Shown here piece by piece: positions 21,549-39,547 of a stretch of DNA of 54,446 nt. The stretch comes from Paracoccaceae bacterium (GTDB taxonomy: Bacteria > Pseudomonadota > Alphaproteobacteria > Rhizobiales > Stappiaceae): positions 1 through 54,446 of the forward strand of contig JABXHV010000103.1 of assembly GCA_013373445.1 (NCBI GenBank), read 5' to 3'. Below the pieces are notes generated by a model. That model was not told the origin of the DNA, ran no database searches, and saw nothing but the letters and a program-made list of their open reading frames with translations. The position numbers and the translations under genes were made by a program. Each line of letters opens with the position of its first letter. Within the stretch, counting starts at the first letter, position 1.

Positions 21549-21623
21549 TGGGGTGTAGCCAAGCGGTAAGGCACTGGTTTTTGGTACCGGCATGCGCAGG
21601 TTCGAATCCTGCCACCCCAGCCA
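21549..21623 (+). tRNA. tRNA-Gln (anticodon TTG)
   Basis: A full cloverleaf with encoded CCA. The acceptor stem TGGGGTG pairs with CACCCCA (21613-21619), discriminator G, then CCA at 21621-21623. The anticodon arm is CTGGT-TTTTGGT-ACCGG, whose seven-base loop gives anticodon TTG, reading CAA. The T arm has the standard GGTTCGAATCC. Upstream, TTGCGC and TATATA spaced about 16 bases apart form a likely promoter. Confidence 0.97.
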
Positions 21624-33899: not shown

Positions 33900-35336
33900 C
33901 TAAAGCGGCAAAGTGACAACCGCTTCCAATCCGCCATCCGGATGGTTTTGCAATTGAATCATGCCGCCATGAGCATGGATAATGGAACGGGTGATCGACA
34001 GACCCAGCCCGATGCCGCCGGTTTCCTCGCTGCGCGAGTCCTCCAGCCGCACAAACGGTTCGAAAATGTCTTTCAGCCTGTCTTCCGGCACGCCGGGGCC
34101 TTTGTCGCGAACACGGATCACGATGTCTTGGCTTTCCTTTGCCATGGAGACGGTGACCGCTTCGCCGTAGCGCACGCCATTTTCAATCAGGTTGATCAGC
34201 GCGCGTTTCATCGCCAGTGGTCTGATCGACACCACCTGTTTGGGTATGTCTTCTGCCATGGACACTGGCCGCCCCATATCCGATTGATCATCGACAATGC
34301 TGTGCAACAGGCTCGTCAGATCAGTTTGGACGGTGGGCTCCTTTTGCGCTTCGTCGCGTGCAAAGGCCAATGTGGCTGCCGTCATCTGTGCCATTTCATC
34401 GAGCGTTGCGATGATCTTCTCGCGGTTCTCATCATCGTCGATGAATTCGGCGCGAAGGCGCAAGGACGTGATCGGTGTGCGCAGGTCGTGGCTGATCGCC
34501 GCCAACATCCGCGTCCTGTCAGAGACGAAACGGGTCAAACGAGTCTGCATGTCATTGAAGGCACGCGTCAGGTCCTTGACTTCCCGCGGACCTCTTTCTT
34601 CCAGCGTCTCCAGGTGTTCACCGCGGCCGAGCTTGGCTGCTGCCACCGATAGATCCTTGAGCGGTTTCGATATCCGTCGCACCAGAAACGCGACGATCAG
34701 GATCACCGCAAGCATAGTGACTGCCATCTGGCTCAACAGGGGAATGAGTGTCTTGGTTGGCGGAAGAAACAAGGTGCGCGTGTTGAACCAGCGCCCATCA
34801 TTGAGCTGGATCGAGATCGACAGATCACCTTCGCGGTCAAACCGGCGACGATCGCGCGGACGCTCATCTTCATCGTCGTCTTGTCCCTCTCTGCTTTCGC
34901 GCGGCGGTGGGCGAGGCATGTCGCCGTCCTGACGATCGCCGGTCCGCAAGCGCACGCGAATACTCCGATTGTCCTGGAATTCACTGGCCAACGTATCCTG
35001 CAATCTGCGCGCAATTACGGTTTTGCCGGGCTCGTCGAGCAGAGGCTCCTCGTTGATCCAGATGCGGGCAAGCTGGCTCCGGGACGCGTTCAGGATCCGG
35101 CGGTGATAGACTTCGGGTGTCTCATCAATCAGACGGACCATGGAGACAACTCTGCGCAGGATATTTTCACGCGCCATGTCTCGCAGTGTGATGCGGCGTT
35201 CGTCAAAGAACATCATGAAGCTGACGGCCTGCGCCACGATGATGGCCAACAGCAAGAGCCCCATGAACTGGGTCGCAAGACCCGGCTTGGACAGCCACGA
35301 GAACCTTCTTTTGTCAGCAGATGGGCCCTGGCTCAT
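33900..35336 (-). CDS. Sensor histidine kinase (EnvZ-type, acidic sensor loop)
   Basis: Membrane kinase of 478 residues. A first transmembrane helix lies near 22-44 and a second near 201-220, enclosing a periplasmic domain of about 155 residues. The HAMP linker follows (RRISKPLKDLSVAAAKLGRGEHLETL), then the dimerisation helix with phospho-acceptor His283 in AAISHDLRTPITSLRLR. The ATP domain has N-box NLIENGVRYGEA, G1 VRDKGPGVPEDRL and G2 TGGIGLGLSITRSI. The periplasmic loop contains an extremely charged stretch (147-172, e.g. REGQDDDEDERPRDRRR) that looks like a divalent-cation or polycation sensor. It overlaps the response regulator by four bases. The neighbouring EF-hand protein makes calcium the leading ligand guess. 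Confidence 0.93.
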   Translation of the reverse strand: MSQGPSADKRRFSWLSKPGLATQFMGLLLLAIIVAQAVSFMMFFDERRITLRDMARENILRRVVSMVRLIDETPEVYHRRILNASRSQLARIWINEEPLLDEPGKTVIARRLQDTLASEFQDNRSIRVRLRTGDRQDGDMPRPPPRESREGQDDDEDERPRDRRRFDREGDLSISIQLNDGRWFNTRTLFLPPTKTLIPLLSQMAVTMLAVILIVAFLVRRISKPLKDLSVAAAKLGRGEHLETLEERGPREVKDLTRAFNDMQTRLTRFVSDRTRMLAAISHDLRTPITSLRLRAEFIDDDENREKIIATLDEMAQMTAATLAFARDEAQKEPTVQTDLTSLLHSIVDDQSDMGRPVSMAEDIPKQVVSIRPLAMKRALINLIENGVRYGEAVTVSMAKESQDIVIRVRDKGPGVPEDRLKDIFEPFVRLEDSRSEETGGIGLGLSITRSIIHAHGGMIQLQNHPDGGLEAVVTLPL

Positions 35337-36061
35337 TTGGTGTCGTCCTCAACCTTCGCCGCGAACATGTATCCGCCGCCCCAGACGGTCTTCACAAAAT
35401 CCGGGGTCTTGGGATCTTTTTCGATCTTGCGCCGCAGACGCGAAACCTGGTTGTCAATCGATCGGTCGAACATGTTGGTGGAGCGGCCCGAAGTCAGGTC
35501 TAGAAGCTGATCCCGGTTCAGCACCATGTTGGGACGCTTGAGAAACGCGCAGAGCAGCTGAAACTCACCACTCGACAAATCGACACGAACACCTTCCGGA
35601 TCGAACAGCTCACGTTTGGTGACATCTAGTCGCCAGCCGTCGAAACGGAACTCATCGGTTTCCACCGGGTCTCTGTCTTTGGGTGTTGCATTGGTTCGGC
35701 GCAGCACCGCCTTGATGCGTGCAAGCAGCTCACGTGGATTGAAGGGCTTGGTAACATAATCATCGGCGCCTATTTCCAGGCCGATGACGCGGTCTGTTTC
35801 TTCGGCCATTGCCGTCAAAAGGATCACTGGCGTGCTTCCGGTCTCTACCAGATGGCGACAAAGGGACAGCCCATCTTCACCCGGCATCATGATGTCGAGG
35901 ACAACCAGATCAATCACGGCGGCCTTCATGGCCTTGCGCGCATGGGCCGCGCTTTCGGCCGTCGTGGCCCGCAAGCCATTCTTGACGAGATAGCGCGCCA
36001 GTGTTTCGCGAATGTCCCGATTGTCGTCAACGACAAGAATATGTGGGCTCGGATCTGTCAC
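35333..36061 (-). CDS. OmpR/PhoB-family response regulator
   Basis: Regulator of 242 residues. The receiver domain has the acidic pair in ILVVDDNRD, phospho-acceptor Asp56 in VVLDIMMPGEDG, the threonine in VILLTAMAEE and Lys105-type lysine in DDYVTKPFNPRELL. The C-terminal winged helix ends with NVSRLRRKIEKDPKTPDFVKTVWGGGYMF-like sequence typical of DNA-binding OmpR proteins. Its stop overlaps the kinase start, so the two are one unit. It is divergent from the EF-hand gene; a 14-base inverted repeat in the shared 229-base region is its most likely target. Confidence 0.94.
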   Translation of the reverse strand: MTDPSPHILVVDDNRDIRETLARYLVKNGLRATTAESAAHARKAMKAAVIDLVVLDIMMPGEDGLSLCRHLVETGSTPVILLTAMAEETDRVIGLEIGADDYVTKPFNPRELLARIKAVLRRTNATPKDRDPVETDEFRFDGWRLDVTKRELFDPEGVRVDLSSGEFQLLCAFLKRPNMVLNRDQLLDLTSGRSTNMFDRSIDNQVSRLRRKIEKDPKTPDFVKTVWGGGYMFAAKVEDDTK

Positions 36062-36290: not shown

Positions 36291-37289
36291 ATGTCCATGA
36301 CCAAGAAAATTGTAGCTGCAGTCCTGACTGCCAGTGTTTCCGTCGGTGCCTTGAGCGCTGCATATGCCCAGACCGCAACAGGTGGTCAGCAGTTCAAGAT
36401 GGCGCGTGCAGAAGGCGGCCAGATGCGCGGTTCAGAAGAGCGCGGTGCGATGTTCTTTGCACGCTTCGACGCAGATGGCGATGGCGTCATCAACAAGACC
36501 GAGTTGAGCGAAGCGACAGCCGAGAATTTCGCCAGCACGGATACGGATGGCGACGGCAATGTCTCCCTGGCCGAGTTCAAGGTCAGCTATATGGAAAACA
36601 CCATGCCGAAGCAGGTACGGACCTTCCAGCGCATGGATCTTGATGGCGATGGGACCGTTACAAAGGCCGAGTATGAAGACGTCGCGGGGCGCATGTTTGC
36701 CCGTCTGGATCGTATGGGCGGCAGAGGCGGCCAAGGTGAGCAGGCCGGCAAATGGGGTCGCAGTGATGATCGCAGCGAGGGCTACGGACGTGGCGGCTAC
36801 AATGACGACGACGACAATGATCGTCGCGGCAAATGGGGCAAAGGCGAAGGAAAGCATGTCCGCGACGGCGAGCGGGGCGGGCGTGACGGCGGTCGACGCT
36901 TCGGTCGCGGTGGCAGGGGCGGGCCGCTTGGAGCTCTGATTGCCCAGTTTGATGTCGATAACAACGGCAAGGTGTCCAGGGAAGAATTTGATACCAAGAG
37001 CGCCGAACTCTTTGCTTCGGCCGACACAAATGGTTCCGGTGGCTTTGAACTGGACGACTTTGCCAACATCTGGGCGACACTCAATGACCGCGATGCGGTG
37101 CGCAAGTTCCAGGCGCTGGATACCAATGGTGACCTCTCCGTGACCCAACAGGAGCAGTCCAAGCAGGCCGAGATGATGCTGGACCGTATGGACCGCAATG
37201 ACGACGGCGTGATCTCCAAGGCTGACTTTGGTCCCGGTATGCGGGGTCATGGGAAACGCGGACACGGCGGCGAACACAAACGCGGCTGA
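36291..37289 (+). CDS. Secreted protein with seven EF-hand calcium-binding loops
   Basis: Precursor of 332 residues with a signal peptide ending near AYA-QT (residue 26). Seven 12-residue EF-hand loops are visible: starting at Asp60 (DADGDGVINKTE), Asp84 (DTDGDGNVSLAE), Asp116 (DLDGDGTVTKAE), Asp221 (DVDNNGKVSREE), Asp245 (DTNGSGGFELDD), Asp277 (DTNGDLSVTQQE) and Asp301 (DRNDDGVISKAD). The first three are canonical, and loops 5 and 7 end in Asp rather than Glu. Between loops 3 and 4 lies a Gly/Arg/Asp-rich linker (about 142-214). It would be periplasmic or extracellular and bind several Ca2+ ions. Divergent from a two-component system whose sensor loop is acidic. GAGGAG lies eight bases before the ATG. 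No enzymatic domain is seen. Confidence 0.9.
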   Translation: MSMTKKIVAAVLTASVSVGALSAAYAQTATGGQQFKMARAEGGQMRGSEERGAMFFARFDADGDGVINKTELSEATAENFASTDTDGDGNVSLAEFKVSYMENTMPKQVRTFQRMDLDGDGTVTKAEYEDVAGRMFARLDRMGGRGGQGEQAGKWGRSDDRSEGYGRGGYNDDDDNDRRGKWGKGEGKHVRDGERGGRDGGRRFGRGGRGGPLGALIAQFDVDNNGKVSREEFDTKSAELFASADTNGSGGFELDDFANIWATLNDRDAVRKFQALDTNGDLSVTQQEQSKQAEMMLDRMDRNDDGVISKADFGPGMRGHGKRGHGGEHKRG

Positions 37290-37322
37290 CCCTGTAGAGC
37301 GGACCGACAGTACCTGCAAACC

Positions 37323-37358
37323 AAAGCCGCCGGATGGACATTCATCCGGCGGCTTTGC
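37323..37358 (+). terminator. Terminator after the EF-hand gene
   Basis: AAAGCCGCCGGATG (37323-37336) pairs exactly with CATCCGGCGGCTTT (37343-37356), a 14-base stem with a six-base loop. The T-run is short, but the stem is very strong and lies 33 bases after the stop. Confidence 0.85.
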
Positions 37359-37439
37359 TGTATGAAACGGGCGCACGGATTTTTTTCAACAGAGCCAAAA
37401 AAAATCTTGAATTCGCAAACGAATTGTTGCATCTAGCTT

Positions 37440-37853
37440 TTGCCCAACTTCGCACGTGCCCGTGGTCGTTCATGGGATGCCTAACTCAGACATCTCTTAA
37501 GGGGCCTCTGCCAATAAACACCGCCAAGGGGCGGGGCAGTAGGATCCGGACGGCTTAAAGCAACGACGTAAGACGGTTTTTTCAGTCTTATCTGAGGTTC
37601 CAATCTCAGAGATGGCTGGAAGAGCAGATGTTACATCATTGCCCGACGTGCGGTTCGGTTTTTCCGATTCCAATCTAAGGCATCACACGCGGGAAAGCGT
37701 CGTCAAAGCTCGTTTTGAGTTTCGCCGCCCTACCGTTGCCACATAACTCGTTGGTTTCCGCCTCCATCCCGGAAAAACCCCTTCGTGCATGTGGCTCCCT
37801 GCGACGTGACTGGCTGCAATGACAGCCACCTAAAATTGGACGGGAGCAACCCG
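37440..37853 (+). ncRNA. Candidate structured leader of ornithine decarboxylase (speF-leader-like)
   Basis: The 564 bases before the decarboxylase hold no supported gene. Several local hairpins are visible: TAAGAC/GTCTTA, CTGAG/CTCAG (37592-37607), GATG/CATC and TGGCTG/CAGCCA. TTCCAATCT occurs twice, at 37598 and 37668. A conserved 'speF leader' RNA upstream of ornithine decarboxylase genes is established in Alphaproteobacteria (Rfam family speF), and the context fits. Close to the start codon two mutually exclusive pairings are possible: GTGGCT (37791-37796) with AGCCAC (37824-37829), or TGGCTG (37811-37816) with CAGCCA (37823-37828), the latter freeing GCTCCC (37794-37799) to pair with the ribosome site GGGAGC (37842-37847). 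Assignment to the Rfam family is inferred, not matched. Confidence 0.5.
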
Positions 37854-38984
37854 ATGAGTGAACGTATCCGTGAATTCCTGCGCAGCCGCGAAAGCGATGG
37901 TCCATGCGTAGTTGTCGACACTGAAATTGTCCGTGAAAACTACCTGGCATTTGCCCGGTCTTTGCCGGACACATCCGTTTATTATGCGGTCAAGGCCAAC
38001 CCTGCTCCTGAAATCCTTTCGCTTTTGGAAGCTCTCGGTTCTTCTTTCGATTGTGCCTCTGTCGGTGAGATCGAAATGGTTCTGGCGACCGGCGCAGACG
38101 CATCCCGTATTTCTTATGGCAACACCATCAAGAAGGAACGCGATGTTGCGCGTGCCTATGAGTATGGCGTTCGTCTCTTTGCTGTCGACTGCAACGAAGA
38201 AGTCGACAAGATTGCACGCGTGGCGCCTGGCTCGCGCGTCTTCTGCCGCGTCCTTTGCGACGGTGCCGGTGCTGAATGGCCGCTGTCCCGCAAGTTCGGT
38301 TGTGATCCGGTTATGGCTGCCGATGTTCTGGAGCATGCGCATCGCCTCGGCCTCGTTGCTTACGGTGTGTCCTTCCACGTCGGGTCACAGCAGGCAAACC
38401 TGGGCGCCTGGGACTTCGCGCTTGAAATGGCTTCCGGCGTTTTCCACGAAATGCAGACCCGTGGAATCGAGTTGAAGATGGTCAACATGGGCGGCGGTTT
38501 TCCAACTCGCTATCTGAAAGATGTACCTGGCGTGCCAAGCTACGGCGAAGCAATCTTCGACGCGTTGAAAAAGCACTTCGGCAACCGCCTTCCATCGACA
38601 ATCATCGAACCAGGTCGCGGCATGGTCGGCAACGCCGGCATCATCGAAACCGAAGTCGTGCTGATTTCCAAGAAGTCTGCGTCCGACGACGTGCGCTGGG
38701 TGTATCTCGACATCGGCAAGTTCCATGGCCTTGCAGAAACAATGGATGAGGCCATTCGCTATCCGATCCGCACTGAGCGTGATGGCGATCAGACCACACC
38801 TTGTGTCCTGGCTGGTCCGACCTGTGACAGCGTGGACGTCATGTACGAAAAGACGCCTTACGAGCTACCTGTCAGCCTGTCGATTGGGGACAAGATCCTG
38901 ATTGAAGCTTGTGGTGCCTACACCACAACCTATTCCACAGTGGGCTTCAACGGTTTCGCACCGCTCGCCTCATACGTCATCTAA
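37854..38984 (+). CDS. Ornithine/lysine decarboxylase (fold type III, alanine-racemase-like)
   Basis: PLP enzyme of 376 residues of the eukaryotic-type ODC family, common in Alphaproteobacteria, that forms putrescine (and often cadaverine) in the cytoplasm. The PLP lysine is Lys47 in VYYAVKANPAPEI. FDCASVGEIEMVLATG, the glycine-rich phosphate loop MGGGFPTRY and EPGRGMVGNAG follow, and the catalytic cysteine and aspartate of the other subunit lie in LAGPTCDSVDVMYEK. The C-terminal ACGAYTTTYSTVGFNGF block is standard. GGGAG eight bases before ATG 37854 sets the start. A long structured leader precedes it, and a GNAT acetyltransferase gene starts 11 bases after the stop, so polyamine level control is probable. 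The gene name varies (odc, speC2 or ldc), so none is given. Confidence 0.95.
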   Translation: MSERIREFLRSRESDGPCVVVDTEIVRENYLAFARSLPDTSVYYAVKANPAPEILSLLEALGSSFDCASVGEIEMVLATGADASRISYGNTIKKERDVARAYEYGVRLFAVDCNEEVDKIARVAPGSRVFCRVLCDGAGAEWPLSRKFGCDPVMAADVLEHAHRLGLVAYGVSFHVGSQQANLGAWDFALEMASGVFHEMQTRGIELKMVNMGGGFPTRYLKDVPGVPSYGEAIFDALKKHFGNRLPSTIIEPGRGMVGNAGIIETEVVLISKKSASDDVRWVYLDIGKFHGLAETMDEAIRYPIRTERDGDQTTPCVLAGPTCDSVDVMYEKTPYELPVSLSIGDKILIEACGAYTTTYSTVGFNGFAPLASYVI

Positions 38985-38995
38985 AGACGCGCGTT

Positions 38996-39547
38996 ATGAT
39001 CCATATCCTTGAAGAGGCGCCGAACCACATCGGCGCCCGCGAGGCCTTGCTCGATCAGAGTTTCGGTCTCGACCGGCATCTCAAGACCAGTGAACGGCTG
39101 CGTGAAGGTCGTTTGCCTGCCTTTGCCTATTCGGCCCTGGACGATGATGAGCGTCTTGTTGGCACAGTGCGCCTGTGGTCGATCGCCGATGAGGCTGGTT
39201 CACCAAGCTTGATGCTGGGACCGATTGCCGTCGAAAAAGGTCTTCAAGGCCAGCGTATCGGTGATCGCCTGATGCGCCACGCCTTGCACCAGGTGGCGCA
39301 TGCGGGCAATGGCTCCATCGTGTTGGTGGGCGACTATGCCTATTACGCACGCTTCGGTTTTGCACAAGGCCTTCTGGATCAGGCAACGTTGCCTGGCCCG
39401 CTCGAACGCGACAGATTTCTCGGGATCGAATTCGTGCCCGGTCATCTGGCAGCACTCAAGGGCTGCCTGAATGGGACCGGTGCTATCGACCCGGCCGCAA
39501 TTCAGCATGTCGATCCGGAATTCATGCAGGTGTTCAAAACGGTTTGA
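38996..39547 (+). CDS. GNAT-family N-acetyltransferase
   Basis: Protein of 183 residues with the GNAT core: ALDDDERLVGTVRLW, LMLGPIAVEKGLQGQRIGDRLMRHALHQV, in which Q-G-Q-R-I-G binds the CoA pyrophosphate, and VLVGDYAYYARFGFA, the YYxRFGF C-terminal motif of the YhbS-type group. It is almost contiguous with the decarboxylase, so acetylation of a polyamine or related amine is possible but unproven. The ATG at 38996 has only a weak ribosome site, suggesting reinitiation after the decarboxylase. Longer in-frame starts lie inside that gene and are unlikely. Confidence 0.87.
   Translation: MIHILEEAPNHIGAREALLDQSFGLDRHLKTSERLREGRLPAFAYSALDDDERLVGTVRLWSIADEAGSPSLMLGPIAVEKGLQGQRIGDRLMRHALHQVAHAGNGSIVLVGDYAYYARFGFAQGLLDQATLPGPLERDRFLGIEFVPGHLAALKGCLNGTGAIDPAAIQHVDPEFMQVFKTV

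Follow-up and report, generated by a model that had tools for sequence, protein, structure and literature searches.

We found that positions 37442 to 37853 of the window (the whole stretch of DNA analysed, 54,446 nucleotides, which is contig 64 of a 3.64-Mb genome) are best explained as one RNA leader in which the known elements ar45 and speF precede an ornithine-type decarboxylase gene, with a choice between termination and read-through (rough probability for this reading, 0.55). The core fold and the conserved hairpins come from comparison among relatives, the competition between folds comes from folding predictions, and termination and read-through are what we infer. As a diverged speF leader of the alphaproteobacterial type, the locus belongs to a known RNA family. 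Its stronger candidate switch lies at 37560 to 37642, about 200 bases upstream of the ribosome site, where the first-pass annotation had placed a bistable switch. The elements that define the locus are as follows.

37406 to 37436, plus strand: likely promoter of the whole leader, CTTG, about 17 to 18 nt, then CATCTA (family consensus)
37442 to 37581, plus strand: diverged ar45 sRNA-like element (RF02347; cmscan, 35.7 bits against a gathering threshold of 40, E value = 4e-6)
37442 to 37458, plus strand: 5′ arm of the ar45 fold, GCCC...CGCACGTG, with CGCACGTG also upstream in relatives
37589 to 37745, plus strand: speF leader (RF00518; full-length match, 25.1 bits against a gathering threshold of 37, E value = 2.5e-4)
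37854 to 38984, plus strand: PLP-dependent ornithine/lysine-type decarboxylase gene (PF02784 and PF00278; 5gjm)

At gathering thresholds, the sole Rfam match in the window was a tRNA gene (21549 to 21620, plus strand); a permissive scan covered 37290 to 37900, where both leader elements scored below gathering. The RF00518 score of the window was the lowest among the 45 genomes of its genus, all of which had a match (40 of 45 above the cut-off), and matches were found in 145 of 297 genomes of the order and 15 of 385 genomes of the class, the window's own being counted each time. Flanking blocks and their order were the same in the leaders compared, which makes the window leader orthologous to those of relatives scoring above gathering, and it stands directly upstream of the ornithine-type decarboxylase that starts with ATG 37854. 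A decarboxylase lay downstream of the RF00518 match in each of the 45 loci checked, namely, the window and 44 others; in a set of 250 loci, 9 had no decarboxylase match. The first-pass annotation was thus right in linking its site to the alphaproteobacterial speF leader already known, which here stands before an ornithine/lysine-type decarboxylase gene. The PDB entries nearest to this protein were lysine/ornithine decarboxylases (best, 5gjm, E value = 1.7e-63), and because its NCBIfam lysA match (176.3 bits) was under the cut-off of 297.9, we took the name ornithine decarboxylase from family and context.

The neighbouring genes were also noted. Directly 3′ of the decarboxylase is a GNAT-type acetyltransferase gene (38909 to 39547, plus strand; PF00583), and of the 84 loci with sufficient flanking sequence, 78 had a homologue after the decarboxylase in the same orientation, so the gene pair may form an operon. 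Upstream of the leader lies an EF-hand protein gene (36291 to 37289, plus strand), after which a perfect inverted repeat (37326 to 37353, GCCGCCGGAT...ATCCGGCGGC) may end that gene's transcription. Divergent from the EF-hand gene are histidine kinase and response regulator genes (33900 to 36061, minus strand), named by eye from open frames.

The two elements recurred together across relatives. ar45 reached gathering in 19 of 20 other loci scanned, and both elements stood at threshold, in tandem and 7 to 9 nt apart, in 18 of 20 loci scanned; in the remaining two, one of them was missing at threshold. CGCACGTG was present within 300 nt upstream of the conserved block in 176 of 177 unique loci. 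Before ar45, the consensus of 51 unique family rows (among them L014, which was misanchored) has a TTG, in most cases CTTG, and a −10 rich in A/T, whose distance from ar45 is constant within a base. Neither a scan for E. coli-type promoters nor a simple terminator scan returned anything on the plus strand here. In the part available to us, the table of a review (PMC7143759) lists “SmelC706/smrC45/SpeF” of S. meliloti, treating the sRNA and speF as one locus, with RpoH1/2 and not with RpoD; this entry is at odds with an ordinary housekeeping promoter.

Next, we looked into the structure of the speF core and of the sequence that leads into it. In the leaders read, a near-constant block, GCAACGACG...U-run, directly precedes RF00518; the RF00518 match begins after the U-run (37589), and the 5′ strands of two of the three core helices, P and Q, fall outside it. 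The arms of these helices are the following.

37560 to 37571, plus strand: shared arm GCAACGACGTAA, whose partner is the ar45 5′ part or 37631 to 37642
37576 to 37587, plus strand: U-run arm GTTTTTTCAGTC, either the ar45 tail or paired with 37614 to 37625 in helix Q
37591 to 37610, plus strand: UCCA-loop hairpin R, TCTGAGGT/ATCTCAGA (window fold; comparison)
37614 to 37625, plus strand: 3′ arm of helix Q, GGCTGGAAGAGC (window fold; comparison)
37631 to 37642, plus strand: 3′ arm of helix P, TTACATCATTGC (window fold; comparison)

In the minimum-energy fold of the window, helix P consisted of GCAACGACGTAA and TTACATCATTGC with two C-A mismatches, and helix Q of GTTTTTTCAGTC and GGCTGGAAGAGC (duplex energy, −14.0 kcal/mol). 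Across alignment A2, which held 74 diverse leaders less than 95% alike out of 142 unique ones, 95.2% of the cells of helices P, Q and R were paired, compared with 45 to 62% when partners were slid by 1 to 3 columns. Cells with two-sided changes numbered 77, against 26.0 after shuffling (0 of 500 shuffles), and the covariation score was 0.201, against 0.116 (0 of 500). The number of pairs with a two-sided change, counted over all helices, was 7 against 5.2 (59 of 500 shuffles as high), little above the shuffles because much of the region hardly varies. All four counted pairs of hairpin R had two-sided changes among relatives. Two pairs of helix P stood out: the first was G-C in 43 sequences, U-A in 26 and A-U in 2, and its adjoining pair was A-U in 50 and U-A in 21. 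The versions GUA/UAC, GGU/ACC, GGA/UCC and GAA/UUC appeared in the alignment; helix Q showed solely one-sided changes in the A2 count, with a two-sided change in the window seen by inspection. We also compared the duplex energies of species-matched and permuted arms over the 142 unique leaders that remained after 19 leaders lacking GTGCGG were dropped, and the matched arms were better for both helix P (z = −17, 0 of 1,000 permutations) and helix Q (z = −6, 0 of 1,000). Sequence comparison thus supports a speF core that is one long bulged stem (P, Q and R), with the end of ar45 and the U-run as its 5′ strand, and the same three helices are found in the window's own fold.

Further conserved segments lie downstream of this core.

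37755 to 37775, plus strand: second UCCA-loop hairpin, TTTCCG...CGGAAA (alignment A1)
37798 to 37806, plus strand: conserved block CCTGCGACG, as the motif or a close form in 48 of 52 family leaders

The UCCA loop occurs in two leader hairpins (37599 to 37602 and 37763 to 37766) with varying stems. In alignment A1, from which L247 to L249 were excluded, the UCCA columns of the second hairpin were invariant in 49 rows, and in a few rows the stem had a two-sided change. The repetition of the loop on changing stems suggests a common binding partner. As a separate observation, a CCGTCGC block (CCGUCGC in RNA; CCGTTGC at 37733 to 37739 in the window) and the GCGACG of CCTGCGACG (37801 to 37806) are both nearly invariant in the genus, and a pairing between them is conceivable by eye. 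Two other pairings were considered and set aside. One joined CGCACGU of ar45 to ACGUGCG of speF; several leaders, e.g., L107 and L125 (Bradyrhizobium), carry GTGAGCGG in its place, and compensation was not seen by eye, so the pairing is not claimed. The other joined a UUGGA beside the Shine-Dalgarno sequence to the UCCA loops; by eye, it was not constant in relatives, and it was dropped.

The end of ar45 is predicted to have two partners. In the ar45 model, GCA and CGAC of the block pair with the 5′ part of ar45, and the model ends at the U-run, with a GCCC/GGGC pairing just before it. We scored the two folds in 187 of 203 leaders (13 had no recognisable 5′ part and 3 no block). When ar45 was folded alone, all 187 leaders showed the GCCC/GGGC closure at a probability of 0.5 or more (10 when the first 20 nt were shuffled); pairing of GCAACGAC with those 20 nt reached a probability of at least 0.3 in 185 of 187 (57 when shuffled). 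When the full leader was folded, the U-run paired with the speF core in 184 of 187 leaders and GCAACGAC did so in 171 of 187, with probabilities below 0.5 in 16. In the window, the ar45 closure had a probability of 0.53 when ar45 was folded alone, its closing stem being weak (GCCC against CGGT), and the re-pairing had one of 0.93 in the full leader. The pairs that close ar45 show almost no variation, and the closed state is a model prediction. Closure of ar45 and capture by the core are predicted to compete as folds.

We propose that one promoter before ar45 would drive the whole leader. While only ar45 has been transcribed, folding predicts that the GCAACGAC arm folds back on the ar45 5′ end and that GCCC closes just before the U-run, giving a terminator-like fold; once transcribed, the speF core is predicted to capture the same arm and the U-run. 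A fraction of the transcripts would stop at the U-run as the ar45 sRNA, and the remainder would read through, refold and become the decarboxylase mRNA, with the read-through fraction setting expression; in this genus, translation would perhaps be further limited by a small Shine-Dalgarno hairpin. The core is transcribed later than the U-run and so cannot act as a classical antiterminator that prevents termination; the decision would have to fall within ar45, e.g., via a protein, an sRNA or a ribosome. A further step, that the decarboxylase mRNA has ar45 as its attenuated 5′ end and that two mutually exclusive folds give ar45 and speF as OFF and ON products, is tentative, and we put it at somewhat under even odds; as part of it, the ar45 terminator arm and the U-run would be the 5′ strand of the speF core, and ar45 might additionally act in trans. 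Since the window is the lowest-scoring member of its genus and its closing stem is weakened, its attenuator may be weaker than those of its relatives.

A different account treats ar45 as a trans-acting sRNA with its own terminator, places the mRNA promoter inside or after ar45 and regards the overlap of arms as incidental. Separate units are how authors have read both Bartonella and S. meliloti, in the parts of the literature available to us. In Bartonella bacilliformis, ar45 is described as a separate small RNA next to a speF transcript of more than 700 nt, and its authors read ar45 as independently expressed (PMC7717549), against the view of one attenuator. In S. meliloti, del Val et al. 2007 mapped the SmrC45 5′ end and assigned the 3′ end to the U-run after a predicted terminator (PMC2780559, in part), and SmrC45 binds Hfq (PMC2848018, in part). 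The mapped and assigned ends of SmrC45 and the pair of a short and a long RNA in Bartonella also count in favour of the attenuator reading. Another excerpt treats “smrC45 (speF)” as one locus and says that it may be independently transcribed (PMC2573895). The view of separate units has to be set against the spacing of no more than 7 to 9 nt in 18 of 18 loci where ar45 and speF are both at threshold, against the joint presence of CGCACGTG and the block in all but one of the unique loci, and against helices P (two-sided changes) and Q (one-sided changes), which join ar45 to speF; we consider separate units unlikely, and a promoter inside ar45 may still be compatible with the data. A leader peptide in the speF core that senses ornithine, like SpeFL of enterobacteria, was rejected almost outright. 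The window does have an open frame of 44 codons from ATG 37612 (the SLPDVRFG frame) that overlaps RF00518, but in relatives the same stretch differed in length by single bases (20, 21 and 22 nt) within a hairpin loop; these single-base length changes break the frame, and no conserved short reading frame was found by reading the speF core of relatives. Direct polyamine sensing by the RNA is likewise disfavoured, contrary to the riboswitch or polyamine-responsive logic offered at first: in the available part of Corbino et al. 2005, the A. tumefaciens speF RNA bound none of six metabolites, namely, ornithine, putrescine, spermidine, lysine, diaminopimelate and cadaverine (PMC1273637). On these published data, as far as seen, the regulatory signal is not the direct binding of ornithine or common polyamines.

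The 3′ end of the leader, for which the same source gives no confident structure in A. tumefaciens (PMC1273637, in part), holds three segments that bear on the ribosome site.

37791 to 37799, plus strand: upstream arm GTGGCTCCC, whose pairing with 37824 to 37829 is unsupported
37811 to 37828, plus strand: local hairpin TGGCTG-CAATGA-CAGCCA, a species-matched stem
37841 to 37853, plus strand: Shine-Dalgarno hairpin CGGG-AGCAA-CCCG, directly before the ATG

The Shine-Dalgarno hairpin, with a stem of at least 4 Watson-Crick base pairs, was present in 35 of 41 unique genus leaders, whereas shuffled genus segments, preserving base composition only, averaged 2.0 and never exceeded 7; it was also present in 3 of 4 further unique family leaders. 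Its stem came in several versions (GGGG/CCCC, CGGG/CCCG, GGGA/TCCC, AGGG/CCCT and GAGGG/CCCTC). Among control genes, whose starts were set by a simple rule and are in some cases wrong, it occurred in 15 of 381 from loci of at least 5 kb and in 3 of 31 from the window, the decarboxylase itself included. Outside the family, it was found in 11 of 130 leaders, hardly above shuffles (mean 7.8, maximum 14). The conserved feature at the ribosome site in this genus is thus a short hairpin that is predicted from sequence to hold the Shine-Dalgarno sequence. Control might then be mainly translational and lineage specific, with a protein, an sRNA or temperature acting on this hairpin and with the upstream elements setting stability only. 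The number of genus leaders that keep the hairpin, its several stem versions and its rarity in shuffles speak for such control; we nevertheless judged it decidedly unlikely, as the hairpin is hardly enriched outside the family while the ar45-speF core is shared, and as its probability in the window, 0.04 to 0.96 over 18 folding frames (6 starts by 3 ends), was 0.19 to 0.47 in the three frames from 37442, which does not make it a dominant prediction in the full leader.

In the switch put forward for the ribosome site, AGCCAC was to alternate between two upstream partners and so hide or free an anti-Shine-Dalgarno sequence. Its words are all present: GTGGCT (37791 to 37796), GCTCCC (37794 to 37799), TGGCTG (37811 to 37816), AGCCAC (37824 to 37829) and GGGAGC (37842 to 37847). 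They fall within the 65 bases preceding ATG 37854, 3′ of the RF00518 element, in a variable spacer at the leader's 3′ end. We compared the arms by permutation in 48 of 52 family rows (46 unique, of which 40 had a hairpin of −8 kcal/mol or lower), the four leaders without the CCTGCGAC block being excluded; in L041 and L028, the hairpin arms were poorly picked by the automatic procedure, a bias against the local hairpin. Consensus folding of A1 missed both the local and the Shine-Dalgarno hairpins, which we attributed to MAFFT column shifts, and scripts were used instead. The two alternative pairings of AGCCAC fared differently. TGGCTG and CAGCCA form a perfect 6-bp local hairpin, with a mean pair probability of 0.92 to 0.97 over the 18 frames, and its arms were species matched in the 40 unique leaders (−8.70 kcal/mol within species against −7.24 between; z = −6.6, 0 of 2,000 permutations). 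It was missing in 4 of 45 genus members (L014, L016, L029 and L030) and in two unique leaders of other family genera. The long GTGGCT/AGCCAC pairing had a mean probability of 0.000; enforcing it in the fold of 37785 to 37870 gave −17.0 kcal/mol against −25.2 when free, a penalty of 8.2 kcal/mol, and in the 40 leaders its arms were not species matched (−6.52 against −6.74 kcal/mol; z = +0.98). The comparison of leaders therefore bore out the local hairpin and not the long pairing, and the two were not conserved together.

Pairing between the anti-Shine-Dalgarno sequence and the ribosome site was weakly species matched (40 leaders, z = −1.2, equalled or bettered in 215 of 2,000 permutations; all 46 leaders, z = −1.7, 111 of 2,000). 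The window's own duplex, at −12.5 kcal/mol, was the strongest of the 40 hairpin-bearing leaders, and words of GTGGCTCCC are common to the window and L014, so a private effect in the window may exist. In 37785 to 37870, the Shine-Dalgarno sequence was paired both in the best fold (its own hairpin, −25.2 kcal/mol) and in the GCTCCC fold (−23.9 kcal/mol), which are 1.3 kcal/mol apart; both hide it, so the proposed logic of a free against a hidden ribosome site has no clear ON state there. In the frames from 37442, neither pairing dominated, GCTCCC reaching a probability of 0.001 to 0.002. In dinucleotide shuffles of 37754 to 37841, GCTCCC arose in 341 of 5,000, a 6-base arm able to pair with either of two upstream segments in 45 of 2,000 and both together in 5 of 5,000. 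The combination of words is uncommon, but it was chosen post hoc, and the local hairpin, one of the three components, is itself genuinely conserved. Weighing the strong duplex and the rarity of the words against the failure of the long pairing and the loss of the hairpin in some genus members, we regard this switch as very improbable: the letters had been read correctly, and the mechanism is unsupported.

If the attenuator reading is true, two catalogued families, ar45 and speF, are products of one attenuator, and the 3′-end and read-through behaviour of ar45 would be key to decarboxylase control in the Hyphomicrobiales. Nowhere in the portions of the literature available to us are the ar45 end and the speF core said to be mutually exclusive; these portions give no mechanism for the speF leader (2005 and 2020) and no characterised function for ar45 (2020). 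The locus also illustrates that comparison can overturn conspicuous matching words at a ribosome site while a better two-state structure lies nearby.

The window resembles several known systems. Like the speF leader described by Corbino et al. 2005, with in-line probing support for a conserved stem of about 80 nt, it precedes a COG0019 decarboxylase, has a core of about 80 nt that forms a long bulged stem and carries further blocks before the start codon (PMC1273637, in part); it differs in its below-gathering score, the lowest of its genus. With ar45 (SmrC45), it shares a whole-model match directly upstream, from the GCCC start to the U-run end; it differs in its lower score and weakened closing stem, and our proposal makes ar45 the 5′ portion of the decarboxylase leader. 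The speF leader of Salmonella and E. coli reportedly carries the SpeFL peptide. The window core, in contrast, has no conserved reading frame, and what the two have in common is a position before an ornithine decarboxylase gene and alternative conformations (PMC6386406, in part). Another related kind is that of 5′-UTR-derived sRNAs, e.g., UpsM of R. sphaeroides (PMC5089854). The window differs from UpsM in being described from sequence and folding alone, with termination and 5′ ends that are predicted. In UpsM-type systems, a short RNA and an mRNA leader arise from one start region, as we propose here for ar45 and the decarboxylase leader.
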